Source: a virus. Taken from it: DNA of 36,926 nucleotides. The stretch lies in IMG/VR virus record IMGVR_UViG_3300037319_000092, positions 1-36,926 of that record; one strand, 5' to 3'. The position numbers and the translations under genes are program-made. The notes beneath the pieces were generated by a model, which saw nothing but the letters and a program-made list of their open reading frames with translations, was not told the origin of the DNA and did no database searches. Below, piece by piece: positions 14,001 through 33,750 of this stretch (positions are counted from its first letter, which is position 1; the number at the start of each line of letters is the position of its first letter).

Positions 14001-14525
14001 AACCATTTGTTTCTCTGTTAAACCTAAGTTCTTGTTGAATAAAGAAGATACTTCCGTACTTGTCTTAAATTCATTCTTAAGCTTCTGCATCAAACCAATA
14101 CTCTTATCGAATGGGTCACCACCGATCAAAGCTCTTTGTGTTTTAAGTGTAGCGTTCAAAGAAAGCATATCGGCATCTAAAGCACCGGCAGCTTTGGCTG
14201 TAGCTAGAATAGAGGATTGACCTTTTGAATTACCTTGAGCCATGAACTCAAGAATTAAATTCTGACGCTCCAACATGGTGGTTGATTTACCAGTGGCTTC
14301 ATTTGCTTTTTCTTGAGCTATCTTTAGCTTTTCTTGAGAAGCAGCAGCTTTGGCAGCAGATTGTTCAGCTTTAACTAGTTCCTTGTTGCTCTTTGCAGAC
14401 TCCTTAGACATCTCCTGCAAGGGTTTGTTTATTTTACTTACAGCAGTGCCTAGTTCCGCTATTTTCTTAGCAGCAGCATCCAATTCTGACGTATCTACTA
14501 CGAATTTTAGTTCTGAAAGTTCCAT
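11028..14525 (-). CDS. Tail length tape measure protein
   Basis: 1165 residues, the longest helical protein here. The N-terminal half is coiled-coil-rich (Lys/Glu/Gln/Ala heptads). A conserved core (ITDVFVGLYSGQSPMTVLVQQGGQLRDQF) and a hydrophobic block (about residues 415-455) typical of tape measures follow. Near the C-terminus lies the lambda H-type motif FAKGTGMMGEAGPEAIMPL. It is encoded just after chaperones G/GT, as in lambda. By the usual 1.5 Angstrom per residue rule the tail would be roughly 170 nm before any processing. The start has a strong AGGAGA site. Confidence 0.93.
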   Translation of the reverse strand: MELSELKFVVDTSELDAAAKKIAELGTAVSKINKPLQEMSKESAKSNKELVKAEQSAAKAAASQEKLKIAQEKANEATGKSTTMLERQNLILEFMAQGNSKGQSSILATAKAAGALDADMLSLNATLKTQRALIGGDPFDKSIGLMQKLKNEFKTSTEVSSLFNKNLGLTEKQMVDLSREKERLITLYGIEGKDVKGLTADYDALIQKSVSINQANNTRTNEMKSQIKVQEDTAKASAYMATELDRVNRLTSSGGNITTATNSKIIKFEKALKLSGKTAEQQVVSLERYKRSLQSIQKAGGDRQVDYLSRALGPQITDVFVGLYSGQSPMTVLVQQGGQLRDQFALAGVAGADMGKMLTKAAASMISSVQDVGLAIGQVFVNAVLGSGKAVVAFAMKVTGTAQVVEYLRYQLALLAGSSGMAMKAFLAIGAVLTAVVGVAVFALGAGLVGLVASISKVIKEENELNKALNLTGAAMGVSLNMAYASAKSMNDLGVSTGVALSVMTEMSKIGGMTSDSLAMIATTAQALQTAFDIPIEETIKKFKELQEKPTESLTKLAIGLGTIPLEILKQVDAYEKAGDSVKAIALATTSYENAAKEASLRTVDSFGTLTRLGISLKEVWNETWETIMGVGRQVPLQDQLDDAITAAARISLQQSANNLRGSGQRLGKAESVVRDLEAQIKAEKDLAAERQKNALAAIQFEKDAKDRKTAANKAQSDANKIEDSYQRMIEQATALLLSQAGAVENLTKSEIALSKVQSTEDFQKQSSTRQENINKIYEQANATELLKRTEDERKRDVDLIAGLYGKSSNMGDQYYATIEKLDTALLSGNVSLKEYAELLNVVYKTSSSFKALESAGSSVGKNISDINAAREGIASQYGMDFKSDDEKASITSLSKFKSDSLKADVEMEKRISDARKVMNVADFEQAKILYTTENQLQKDFLEERLAREQDTLTDAFKRNQAYSDAFENLFKGMGDSIVDFALTGKSSFSDMVESMLIGLLKLEVQMQMTNALKASGGASGIMSSIGAMFGFANGGSFSGGGIQQFAKGGSFSNSVVDSPTLFKFAKGTGMMGEAGPEAIMPLRRGSDGSLGVVASGGSTGNVSVNVVNNSTSQARTTETTDSKGNRRIEVLIGDMTAGEISRSGSASQKSIKSTFGLQPQLIRR

Positions 14526-14553
14526 TTTAATTTCTCCTGTTATGGATACGAAT

Positions 14554-14588
14554 CTATGTTTATGAACTGTTTAAATTCACAAACATAG
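14554..14588 (-). repeat. 13-bp stem-loop in the leader of the tape-measure gene
   Basis: Arms 14554-14566 and 14576-14588 pair over 13 bp with a 9-base loop. The one non-Watson-Crick position is G-U on the minus-strand RNA but A-C on the plus strand, so the fold is favoured in the leftward transcript. It lies between the gpGT stop and the tape-measure ribosome site. A role in translation control or mRNA processing is inferred. Confidence 0.55.
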
Positions 14589-14589
14589 A

Positions 14590-14607
14590 AGCCCTCGTTA
14601 GAAGGCT
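14590..14607 (-). repeat. Small hairpin after the gpGT stop
   Basis: AGCCTTC-TAAC-GAGGGCT (minus strand) makes a 7-bp stem with one G-U pair directly after the chaperone stop at 14614. There is no strong U-tract, so it is at best a weak terminator or a processing/stabilising hairpin, immediately followed by the larger stem at 14554-14588. Confidence 0.45.
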
Positions 14608-20080: not shown

Positions 20081-21310
20081 TTACTTGTGTGCTTGCTTGG
20101 CTTTAAGTAATTTTGCCACAGCAGATTCTTTAACAACGGTTTCTTCTTGCGTTGAAACACCTTTTTCTACGAACATCTCAGATGTTTCAACAGTAGTCAT
20201 CAAAGCTTGCATAGCTGTGAGAAACGCTGTAAAATCATCTTCAGATTCTAATGATAGAGCAGCCTTAGCGATTGCTTCTACCTTACTATCGTCTTTAACG
20301 ATAGATTTAACTTTTTCAGTTTTTGCCTTATTGATAGCTTCTTTTCTCTCAGCTTCAAACAGAGCAATTGTATCCAGAGCTTTTTGTAGTTGTACCTTTT
20401 GCTCATCTAGAGCTTTTTGCACAAGTTCAAACTGAGCTTTTTCAACGGTTTCGATTTTAATTTCGTCTTCCATCTTAGATTTCTCCAATTCTTCTTTGTT
20501 AACAGAGGTAGATACCCCTTCAATATTCTCAACGCCAGCGTTTGTTGAGGCATCATTACCGTCTGCAGAAGCAGCAGGGTCAGATTCTTTATCTAGAGAC
20601 TTCTGTACTTTACTGAGTGTACCAGCCCTGTGACCAACAACTGTTTCGGTTGGCTCACCATCTCTATAAATTTGTATCAAAGCAGCAGGATTCTCTGCAG
20701 TAGCATTTAGTGTAAAGTCAGTACCGGGAACTTTCAAAGAACCTTCTCTAACTATCTCTTGAATCTTACCCGTGGCTTTACCACCACTTGAATTCCAAGA
20801 CACCATATCACCAACTTTGGGCTTATATGCTTTTTCTAATTTATCAAATGCTTTTTCGATCAAAGCTTGATCATTCAACATTGATAAATATTCGCTTTCA
20901 TCTAACTCAGATAGAACTTGTGAAAGACTCTCAGCATCATAAGCAGACTTCATTAACTCGTAAGATTCTAACTTAGACTGAATGTAATCTTCATGAGTTT
21001 CACCAGCCATAACATCACCATTAGGCATCGTGTGTGTTGGTTCGTAACCCATCATGCGAGCAAGAACTTCAGCATCACTACCGTACACTGAGAAGAACTT
21101 TTGCAGAAAATCAGGCAGTTCCATTGTTACACGAACTTGTTGCATTTTCTCTATGAATTCTTCACTGAAGTTATTTGCTTTTAATACCAGAGCGTAGTCA
21201 TGTGTATTTGCGGGGCCACCTTGTGACTTAGAAGTCAGGGCTACGTGAGCGCCTTCTTTTTCAAAACTAATATCCGATAGTTTTCTTTTAGCTTTTCGTT
21301 GTGTTGCCAT
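20081..21310 (-). CDS. Putative scaffold/capsid assembly protein with DUF2945 (Tudor-like) domain
   Basis: 409 residues in three parts: a helical N-terminal region; residues about 163-233, which match the DUF2945/Hva1 Tudor-like domain (VGDMVSWNSSGGKATGKIQEIV...AENPAALIQIYRDGE...VVGHRAGTLSKV); and a highly charged coiled-coil region (about 265-345) with a helical C-terminus ending in a basic KAKQAHK. The C-terminal half looks like a scaffold. Position between protease and decoration/capsid genes supports a role in prohead assembly; lambda has Nu3 there. The Tudor-like domain's job in a phage is unknown. The start overlaps the protease stop by one base. Confidence 0.65.
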   Translation of the reverse strand: MATQRKAKRKLSDISFEKEGAHVALTSKSQGGPANTHDYALVLKANNFSEEFIEKMQQVRVTMELPDFLQKFFSVYGSDAEVLARMMGYEPTHTMPNGDVMAGETHEDYIQSKLESYELMKSAYDAESLSQVLSELDESEYLSMLNDQALIEKAFDKLEKAYKPKVGDMVSWNSSGGKATGKIQEIVREGSLKVPGTDFTLNATAENPAALIQIYRDGEPTETVVGHRAGTLSKVQKSLDKESDPAASADGNDASTNAGVENIEGVSTSVNKEELEKSKMEDEIKIETVEKAQFELVQKALDEQKVQLQKALDTIALFEAERKEAINKAKTEKVKSIVKDDSKVEAIAKAALSLESEDDFTAFLTAMQALMTTVETSEMFVEKGVSTQEETVVKESAVAKLLKAKQAHK

Positions 21311-32367: not shown

Positions 32368-32396
32368 ATTATAGCACAACAATCTGCTTTTTTCAA
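32368..32396 (-). promoter_or_regulatory. Sigma-70 promoter upstream of zinc-ribbon, tRNA and terminase genes
   Basis: -35 TTGAAA (32396-32391), 17-base spacer, TGC then -10 TATAAT (32373-32368). It lies 10 bases after the stop of the gene at 32406-32888, and is the best candidate for the start of the packaging-gene transcript. Confidence 0.82.
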
Positions 32397-32405
32397 GTGC
32401 AAAGT

Positions 32406-32888
32406 TCAATCGAATACACAATACTTATTCAATATCTTAGCGTACTTAAGCTGAAGTTTGTTGTAAGCTCTCTTTACCATTACTACATCTTGCACAACTA
32501 ACGTTCTGTTCTTAGAATCTTCTTTCCATATTAATAAATATGAAAACATATCTTTAGGATGTGGTTTTATTTTAAGATAACCAGATAAGTTCTTATGAGC
32601 TTCTTTTATTATATTATACGTCTTATTTGATATAAGCACTAAATTACAATACCTAAAATCAGTTTCATCTAAATTCTTATGCAATGGTACTTTATCCTTT
32701 ACAACATCAATATTGTTTACTAATTTAAATACAAGCTTATTAGCTTTTAACTTAATTCTTTTACCATTTCTATAGAATATTAGATACCCATCTTCATTTG
32801 CAAATATCTTTCGGTATCTTAAGTTGTTCTTTAGTATAAAGAAGGAACCATCTAACATATCATAATCAATTAGTTCTTTTATTTCCAT
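32406..32888 (-). CDS. Hypothetical protein, possibly a degenerate HNH-like endonuclease
   Basis: 160 residues, Lys/Asn/Tyr-rich. The N-terminal part (ILKNNLRYRKIFANEDGYLIFYRNGKRIKLKANKLVFKLVNN...VPLHKNLDETDFRYCNLVLIS) follows the layout of phage HNH endonucleases (GY..I...GK.....H.L ... HK..D....N.NL), but only one His is clear, so it may be inactive. The C-terminal LQLKYAKILNKYCVFD looks family-specific. The ribosome site AAAGGTCATGTT is nearly identical to that of the adaptor gene at 18483. Transcribed from the leftward promoter at 33368 or from upstream. Confidence 0.5.
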   Translation of the reverse strand: MEIKELIDYDMLDGSFFILKNNLRYRKIFANEDGYLIFYRNGKRIKLKANKLVFKLVNNIDVVKDKVPLHKNLDETDFRYCNLVLISNKTYNIIKEAHKNLSGYLKIKPHPKDMFSYLLIWKEDSKNRTLVVQDVVMVKRAYNKLQLKYAKILNKYCVFD

Positions 32889-33110
32889 AACATGACCTTT
32901 AATTATAAATTATCTAAAGTTTTTGTACAATTCTGATAAGACTACTAGAAGCCTTCTAAGCGTTTTTTATACCTTCAAGCTAGGTGGCTATGCCTTGGTA
33001 CAAACAAACGCCGTCTGATGCCTATACGTGCGTTGTACGAACGTTTTGACGTTTGATTTGCACATTCAAATTGAAGAATCATCTGAACCGTCTGTAAGAC
33101 ACCCCAACGG
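32889..33110 (-). other. Long leader region with inverted repeats, no supported gene
   Basis: The transcript from the promoter at 33368-33396 would have about 470 bases before the next ATG. The 32960-33110 part is more GC-rich than the flanks and has imperfect stems on the minus strand: AACCCGT/ACGGTT, GTACAA-CGC/GCG-TTGTAC (with bulge) and TAGG/CCTA. The palindrome TAGAAG-C-CTTCTA lies at its downstream end. A 100-residue frame over this area lacks a ribosome site and starts within the iterons, so it was not accepted. Could be an untranslated regulatory RNA. Confidence 0.35.
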
Positions 33111-33172
33111 GTTGAGTTCAAGCAAAAGAGATTAAACAATAGAAAAACATAAAAGATAATAAAATTACGTAG

Positions 33173-33228
33173 ATAATAACTTAAGTTAAAATATAAGTAA
33201 CAATCTACATATAAGCTTAAGTTATTAT
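33173..33228. repeat. 13-bp perfect inverted repeat in the control region
   Basis: ATAATAACTTAAG (33173-33185) and CTTAAGTTATTAT (33216-33228) are exact reverse complements separated by 30 bases. They lie beside the tandem repeats at 33262-33314 in a very AT-rich stretch. Confidence 0.75.
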
Positions 33229-33345
33229 ATCTTATATATCTTATTTGTTTAATATTTAGTACATCAGTAGTTAACATCAGTAGTTAACATTAGATATTAA
33301 CATCAGATGGTTAATCTAGGTAATAACCTACATATAAACTTAAGT
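33205..33345. repeat. Iteron-like tandem repeats flanked by an 18-bp direct repeat (origin/operator candidate)
   Basis: Four tandem units: CATCAGTAGTTAA (33262-33274), the identical CATCAGTAGTTAA (33275-33287), CATTAGATATTAA (33288-33300) and CATCAGATGGTTAA (33301-33314). They are bracketed by CTACATATAAGCTTAAGT (33205-33222) and CTACATATAAACTTAAGT (33328-33345), which match at 17 of 18 positions. Tandem iterons in an AT-rich, gene-free, divergently transcribed region are typical of a replication origin or of cooperative repressor binding. Confidence 0.65.
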
Positions 33346-33367
33346 ATATAACTCTTAGTATTTCTTT

Positions 33368-33396
33368 AGTGTAGCACACTTTTTCTGGTTTGTCAA
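33368..33396 (-). promoter_or_regulatory. Leftward promoter of the divergent control region
   Basis: Perfect -35 TTGACA (33396-33391), 17-base spacer, TGC then -10 TACACT (33373-33368, 4 of 6). Predicted start near 33361, just before the iteron region, so the iterons lie in its transcribed leader. Confidence 0.7.
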
Positions 33397-33418: not shown

Positions 33419-33446
33419 TTGACATACTGTGTATTCGTGCTATAAT
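33419..33446 (+). promoter_or_regulatory. Strong rightward promoter of the control region
   Basis: Perfect -35 TTGACA (33419-33424), 16-base spacer, TGC then perfect -10 TATAAT (33441-33446). The next gene starts at 33481 with AAGGAGATAT, so the 5' leader is short. Likely an early promoter driving the AT-hook protein, PhoH and ClpP-like genes. Confidence 0.9.
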
Positions 33447-33480: not shown

Positions 33481-33750
33481 ATGCAAACTAAACGAATTGA
33501 AACTTACAGTTTATTTGAATTTTGTCAGGTTGTTGAGCAGAGTGTAATTGAAGGTTGGAGGTTTGATTTTGAATCAAATGAACTGTTTCCTACAGCTTTT
33601 GGAAGTATGTTAGTTACAGGAATGGTTAAAGCTGAAGATAAAGCAGTTGTGCTGCAATTACCAGAATCAGATGCAGTTGTATTCGAGATTAATACTGATT
33701 CTAATGCTCAAGTTAAACGAGGTCGCAAACCAAAGGATGTTGCTATTTAA
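33481..33750 (+). CDS. Small protein with C-terminal AT-hook-like motif
   Basis: 89 residues. The main part is an acidic, mixed alpha/beta domain (SLFEFCQVVEQSVIEGWRFDFESNELFPTAFGSMLVTGMV) and the C-terminus is QVKRGRKPKDVAI, whose RGRKPK core resembles an AT-hook that binds the minor groove of AT-rich DNA. It is the first gene of the rightward operon, close to a strong promoter and perfect ribosome site, so it is probably made early and abundantly. A DNA-binding or regulatory role at the neighbouring AT-rich repeats is inference. Confidence 0.65.
   Translation: MQTKRIETYSLFEFCQVVEQSVIEGWRFDFESNELFPTAFGSMLVTGMVKAEDKAVVLQLPESDAVVFEINTDSNAQVKRGRKPKDVAI

Follow-up and report, generated by a model that had tools for sequence, protein, structure and literature searches.

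An AT-rich array of short repeats in the 36.9-kb record of a freshwater phage lies within the first ~190 nt of the predicted leftward transcript, and at the same locus its relatives keep a lattice of short pseudo-palindromes with a 12-bp pitch. From comparison of these sequences we propose that the array is an operator lattice, that is, a cis-acting strip on which protein would dock at the head of the leftward (late) transcript; we give this reading about an even chance of being right. The array had originally been predicted to be an origin or a master operator. The operator half of that prediction gains from the finding that a conserved array, present at one locus only, stands where the leftward transcript begins, and the origin half is weakened by a cluster of DnaA boxes elsewhere.

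The locus and its relatives

The whole stretch of DNA that was analysed (36,926 nucleotides; hereafter the window) comes from a relative of Limnohabitans phage DC31, with 74% nucleotide identity over 80% of the 2.3-kb locus. DC31 is a 76-kb long-tailed phage (PMC12195039). Its sequence record (PQ492658) carries the label Pakpunavirus, which looks doubtful: according to the paper, the phage has a long tail and shares very little with phages already known. Curvibacter phage P26059A is a more distant relative (34% identity in the 89-aa protein described below, 43% in the HNH-like protein). For comparison we used these two phages together with ~40 IMG/VR loci, gathered via PhoH and via the HNH-like protein. 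Two publications on the isolated relatives (PMC12195039, PMC5964084) do not mention promoters and describe neither a replication origin nor the region studied here.

Leftward from 32888 run genes for the HNH-like protein, a zinc-ribbon-like protein, a tRNA, the terminase and structural proteins; rightward from 33481 run those for the 89-aa protein, PhoH and ClpP-like proteins, and the window ends 3.2 kb past phoH. The genes and promoters that frame the array are as follows.

32406–32888, minus strand: HNH-like protein of 160 aa, first gene of the leftward operon, present at the locus in relatives
33368–33396, minus strand: PL, a leftward sigma70-type promoter sequence, TTGACA-17-TACACT with an extended −10 (TGTGCTACACT), conserved in aligned relatives and visible in the sister clade
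33419–33446, plus strand: PR, a rightward promoter sequence, TTGACA-16-TATAAT (12/12), conserved in the alignment of relatives
33481–33750, plus strand: 89-aa protein with a beta-alpha-beta-beta core (residues 1–50), a disordered middle and a conserved basic tail, KRGRKPK

In the alignment of relatives, few bases of the region are conserved as well as the hexamers of PL and PR. The original prediction had set the array between a leftward and a rightward promoter; both are in fact found on its right, so that transcription leftward from PL would pass through it. Judged from its sequence, PL would start RNA near 33361. The HNH-like protein matches PHROG 99 (E 6e-7); its match to Pfam HNH_3 (E 0.016) falls below the cut-off, and the motif looks degenerate in the alignment. 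A second good promoter-like site (TTGAAA-17-TATAAT, with TG) stands at 32368–32396 on the minus strand, upstream of the zinc-ribbon gene and the tRNA, and may contribute to late transcription.

Repeats in the window array

The array is 77% AT and contains several kinds of repeat, all of which had been predicted and all of which are present in the sequence.

33173–33228, no strand: 13-bp perfect inverted repeat, ATAATAACTTAAG (33173–33185) and CTTAAGTTATTAT (33216–33228)
33205–33222, plus strand: left copy of an 18-bp direct repeat, CTACATATAAGCTTAAGT
33261–33313, no strand: four tandem units of 13–14 bp, two of them identical
33328–33345, plus strand: right copy of the 18-bp direct repeat, CTACATATAAACTTAAGT, matching the left copy at 17 of 18 positions

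The tandem series opens with two exact copies of ACATCAGTAGTTA (33261–33286), followed by the degenerate units ACATTAGATATTA (33287–33299) and ACATCAGATGGTTA (33300–33313); TRF reports 33261–33306 with a period of 13 and 3.5 copies. The 18-bp direct repeat, which brackets the tandem units, sits within a 45-nt repeat at 78%, and a palindrome, TAACTTAAGTTA (33177–33188), falls within the span of the inverted repeat. Over 33205–33345, repeated 8-mers form 19 direct pairs where 1.5 are expected, a number that none of 500 dinucleotide shuffles reached; inverted 8-mer pairs over the same interval show no excess over dinucleotide shuffles. Across the window, exact tandem duplications with a period of 10–16 occur at just two places, of which 33261 is one, and the identical 13-bp pair has the look of a duplication that is recent and local. 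No conserved gene covers the array, in agreement with the original prediction: a 100-aa ORF there (32975–33277, minus strand) has no counterpart in relatives.

A 12-bp lattice in relatives

The 13-mer itself is not kept by relatives and is specific to the window phage. What the relatives have in common at the locus is AT-rich DNA, TAAC-N4-GTTA pseudo-palindromes and a 12-bp pitch, and in the window the corresponding feature is the following.

33170–33355, no strand: lattice of AT-rich, TAAC-N4-GTTA-like pseudo-palindromes, recognised by unit counts, spacing and density

The original prediction had named a lack of conservation in relatives as a point that would tell against it; this holds for the 13-mer, but the array is conserved as a 12-bp lattice. 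Unit spacings over 19 arrays include 52 at 12 bp where 1.1 are expected, with 25 at 11 and 15 at 13 (~1 expected for each) and an echo, or second cluster, at 23–25, all counted with a motif that was defined after looking at the data and among relatives that are not independent observations. Autocorrelation that uses no motif gives a peak at 12 over 14 arrays (z 12.3), and 12 bp is individually the strongest period in most arrays; P26059A on its own reaches a z of 4.6. The units often stand head to tail, which produces GTTATAAC at the joints.

The lattice is weaker in the window than in relatives (period 12/13, z 2.1), and the 13-mers of the window can be read as lattice units with one extra base (TAACATCAGTAG, TTAACATCAGTAG). 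The 316 bp to the left of the leftward promoter hold nine units scoring at least 6/8, compared with 3.7 in shuffled sequence, and three unit pairs are spaced at 11–13 bp, compared with 0.17 in shuffles (0/40 shuffles). In both the window and DC31, the densest 250-bp stretch for the unit is the array, at 5.9 and 6.1 times the density of the rest, respectively. In two loci (L006 and L008), a homing endonuclease gene, which carries a promoter-like sequence of its own, parts the array and PL from the 89-aa gene. The array and PL stay together there, a sign that the array is functionally tied to PL.

The sequence of the unit drifts quickly while its pitch is kept. An AT-rich intergenic tract that merely gathers short tandem duplications, with no specific function, would be in keeping with this rapid change and with the seemingly recent 13-bp duplication, but the 12-bp spacing goes far beyond shuffles, and both locus and pitch are kept where the 89-aa proteins share only 34% identity; we regard such an explanation as most improbable. 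The array is real and conserved. The regularity of its pitch is somewhat unusual, but arrays of repeats at the control regions of phages are in general a known type.

Tandem hairpins in the leader

Between the array and the first leftward gene, ~250 nt from the predicted PL start, the leader contains a second conserved element.

33090–33112, minus strand: two tandem RNA hairpins, ACCCGTTGGGGT (33112–33101) and GTCTTACAGAC (33100–33090), recognised by covariation and fold

Over 12 sequences, 100% of the hairpin pairs are standard, and 16 two-sided changes occur compared with 5.8 when shuffled (0/500); none of the slid controls came close. A search of the leader against Rfam matched no family, and the RNAalifold signal for the whole leader is weak because it aligns poorly. 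In phage HK022, the put antiterminator RNAs form a tandem pair of hairpins within the leader of a long operon. The window likewise has two tandem hairpins in a long phage operon leader, and by this analogy we would guess that they are a put-like antiterminator; they differ in their distance from the predicted start and in that no sequence similarity is shown. After the hairpins comes a leader block (ACCTTCAGC...GCCCCTAG...CTAGGGGTATGTAGCCTGAAGGT) that is kept in most relatives (DC31 14500–14600, minus strand) and has diverged in the window. The block shows apparent long-range pairing, and a partial second copy lies beside the DnaA boxes of DC31 (20195–20230).

The array might itself act as RNA: the PL transcript would then have a structured, AU-rich 5′ leader in which the array and the two hairpins work together. 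In favour of this, the array is part of the leader, its units are each able to form a hairpin of 4 bp, the tandem hairpins downstream are clearly RNA structure, and the array RNA of DC31 folds better than shuffles (z −2.6). However, the folds of the window and L007 arrays are no better than those of shuffles (z −1.4 and −1.0), the unit arms are conserved as sequence and often asymmetric, and a 12-bp pitch, which suits the helix of DNA, has no evident explanation in RNA. We consider a role of the array as RNA distinctly unlikely.

Candidate replication origins and the sister clade

In a sister clade (L018–L025), PL would drive a minus-strand winged-helix gene that lies upstream of the 89-aa gene and matches replication initiation families (DUF6945/PHROG 8102, E 2e-12; phrog_270; O-like). 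Directly after this gene come three iterons of 22 bp, which in the genomes searched match in full nowhere else, and then AT-rich DNA. The iterons differ between phages (GGCGAAATTTGC, GTCCGAAAATTAG, CGGTAAAAATTTTATAC), and it is possible that initiator and iterons co-evolve as pairs. The locus holds either the initiator–iteron module or the lattice; L018 combines iterons with lattice-like spacing. Homology of the array to the AT-rich stretch of the sister clade (AACTATACTGATAT vs AACTACTGATGTT) seemed suggestive at first but was rejected, as local alignment scores did not go beyond shuffles.

What the sister clade carries at this locus raises the question of whether the array is a secondary replication origin, that is, an AT-rich unwinding element beside a promoter, either as the remnant or counterpart of an initiator–iteron system or as an R-loop origin at which the PL transcript would invade the AT-rich DNA of the array and prime synthesis. 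The combination seen in L018, the strong promoter with AT-rich DNA immediately after it, and the presence of 13-mers in AT-rich DNA, which recall the DUE 13-mers of RK2 and oriC (PMC4980987), are all consistent with this idea. Against it, the lattice is palindromic whereas DUE 13-mers are strand-asymmetric, and the array in the window clade comes without DnaA boxes, iterons or an initiator gene. The window contains no strict DnaA box, and we rejected a DnaA-type origin at the array because it has no such boxes. Profile searches found no initiator homologue in the window or in DC31, only in the sister clade; the DC31 gene at 20751–21173 was considered as the absent initiator and rejected, its only match being to a PHROG whose function is unknown.

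Iteron plasmid origins (RK2 oriV, F and P1) and the lambda ori resemble the window in that a promoter adjoins AT-rich DNA with short repeats in tandem, and the sister clade adds an O-like or Rep-like winged-helix gene and its three iterons. Three or more direct initiator sites of 17–22 bp mark an iteron-type origin, together with an AT-rich unwinding region containing 13-mers. The window clade, in contrast, has pseudo-palindromes of 12–13 bp and neither iterons of that length nor an initiator gene nor DnaA boxes; the array is 77% AT and has 13-mers, but these are palindromic and not conserved as 13-mers, and in relatives a DnaA cluster lies ~5 kb away.

This cluster is a better candidate than the array and, going by its sequence, is probably the replication origin of the group. 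It consists of two to eight TTATCCACA boxes around CTTATATAAGA, 3.9–5.7 kb to the right of the phoH start and thus beyond the end of the window. All 11 loci that are long enough have it, in both clades (L007, L013, L020, L022, L024 and L026 among them), as does DC31 at 20.2–20.4 kb (within L032:20100-20700). In P26059A the counterpart is partly degenerate, with TTATCCCGT and TGTGGATAA around CTTATATAAGA. About seven 20-bp direct repeats accompany the cluster in DC31 and L007. Cumulative GC skew, originally put forward as a way to place the origin, gives no support to the array: in DC31 its minimum is at ~35 kb and not at the array (14.8 kb). The skew follows the strand of the genes (early genes have +0.13 to +0.14 on their coding strand whichever way they run) and is for this reason uninformative as a test for origins. 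Taken with the cluster, a secondary origin at the array seems to us unlikely.

A putative operator lattice

The operator reading starts from what the sequences show: the repeats themselves, the 12-bp pitch that relatives keep, where the array lies with respect to the promoter sequences, its concentration at a single place and the covarying hairpins of the leader. Promoter activity, protein binding, the protein concerned, repression and its timing are predicted from these. RNA starting at PL would pass through the array and then through the hairpin leader, the HNH-like and zinc-ribbon genes, the tRNA, the terminase and the structural genes. A phage-encoded and probably oligomerising protein would sit on the AT-rich pseudo-palindromes, which lie about one helical turn apart (12 bp; 13 locally), and its occupancy of the array would block or delay PL; it could also affect PR, which would drive the 89-aa/PhoH/ClpP operon. 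The lattice begins close to the expected RNA start of the conserved PL and lies in the leader of the operon for the tRNA, terminase and structural proteins. Its position at this start, its presence at a single place and a pitch that is kept despite drift fit a cooperatively bound, oligomerising protein. The operator reading is further supported by the conservation of place and architecture in close relatives, in DC31 and in the distant P26059A; most of the sister clade, which has PL without a clear lattice, speaks against it. A TAACTTAAGTTATAAC stretch upstream of the rightward early operon of DC31 (35361) is suggestive only as a further copy of the operator.

Lambda OL/OR and the stoperators of mycobacteriophage L5 are multi-site phage operators. 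Such operators have repeated dyads at a promoter, and the array has them too, near a strong promoter in an arrangement that suggests cooperative occupancy; it differs in its many more and more degenerate units, in its regular 12-bp pitch and in its restriction to one locus. The sites of phi29 protein p6 and the TubR/ParR centromere arrays have a regular spacing near one helical turn. As an analogy of design, this spacing suits an oligomer on DNA, but the window has no recognised homologous protein or nearby NTPase, and its array is confined to a single control region.

The same analogy opens another explanation, in which the array is a centromere-like, nucleoid-type or packaging-type site that nucleates a protein filament for segregation, organisation or packaging. 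The repeats are concentrated at one place in the genome, are short and contiguous at about one helical turn as in the ParR/TubR arrays, and lie ~1.7 kb from the gene for the terminase small subunit. However, no ParM-, TubZ- or ParA-like gene is recognised near the array, nothing points to maintenance as a plasmid, pac sites are usually located within terS or next to it, and DC31 forms clear plaques (PMC12195039). The literature on partition offers general analogies only, and we hold such a site to be very unlikely.

As to the protein that would bind the operator lattice, only the position of its gene makes the 89-aa protein a candidate. AlphaFold predicts its core confidently and its basic tail as disordered. 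The AT-hook-like tail originally ascribed to it is borne out in part: the protein ends in KRGRKPK plus four residues, a basic tail that contains RGRKP, but the canonical AT-hook core RGRP is absent. The KRGRKPK tail is found in the window and most array-bearing relatives, and KRGPKPK in most of the sister clade; RGRP occurs only in L022. Assignment to a known DNA-binding fold was rejected, with no PDB match at E <0.001.

Implications

At one fixed position, these phages show an apparent evolutionary swap between a repeat lattice and an initiator gene with iterons. A bolder and, in our estimate, distinctly improbable extension is that in a widespread group of freshwater phages this one unique lattice, drifting fast in sequence but held to its 12-bp pitch, nucleates a filament of a phage-encoded protein on DNA, which would link late transcription to replication or to the organisation of the genome, and that the sister clade swapped the locus for an initiator and iterons. 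The isolated relatives come from hosts that are abundant in fresh water, members of the Comamonadaceae, and the locus offers a defined late-control region open to testing. Late control and replication in this group both become directly testable.
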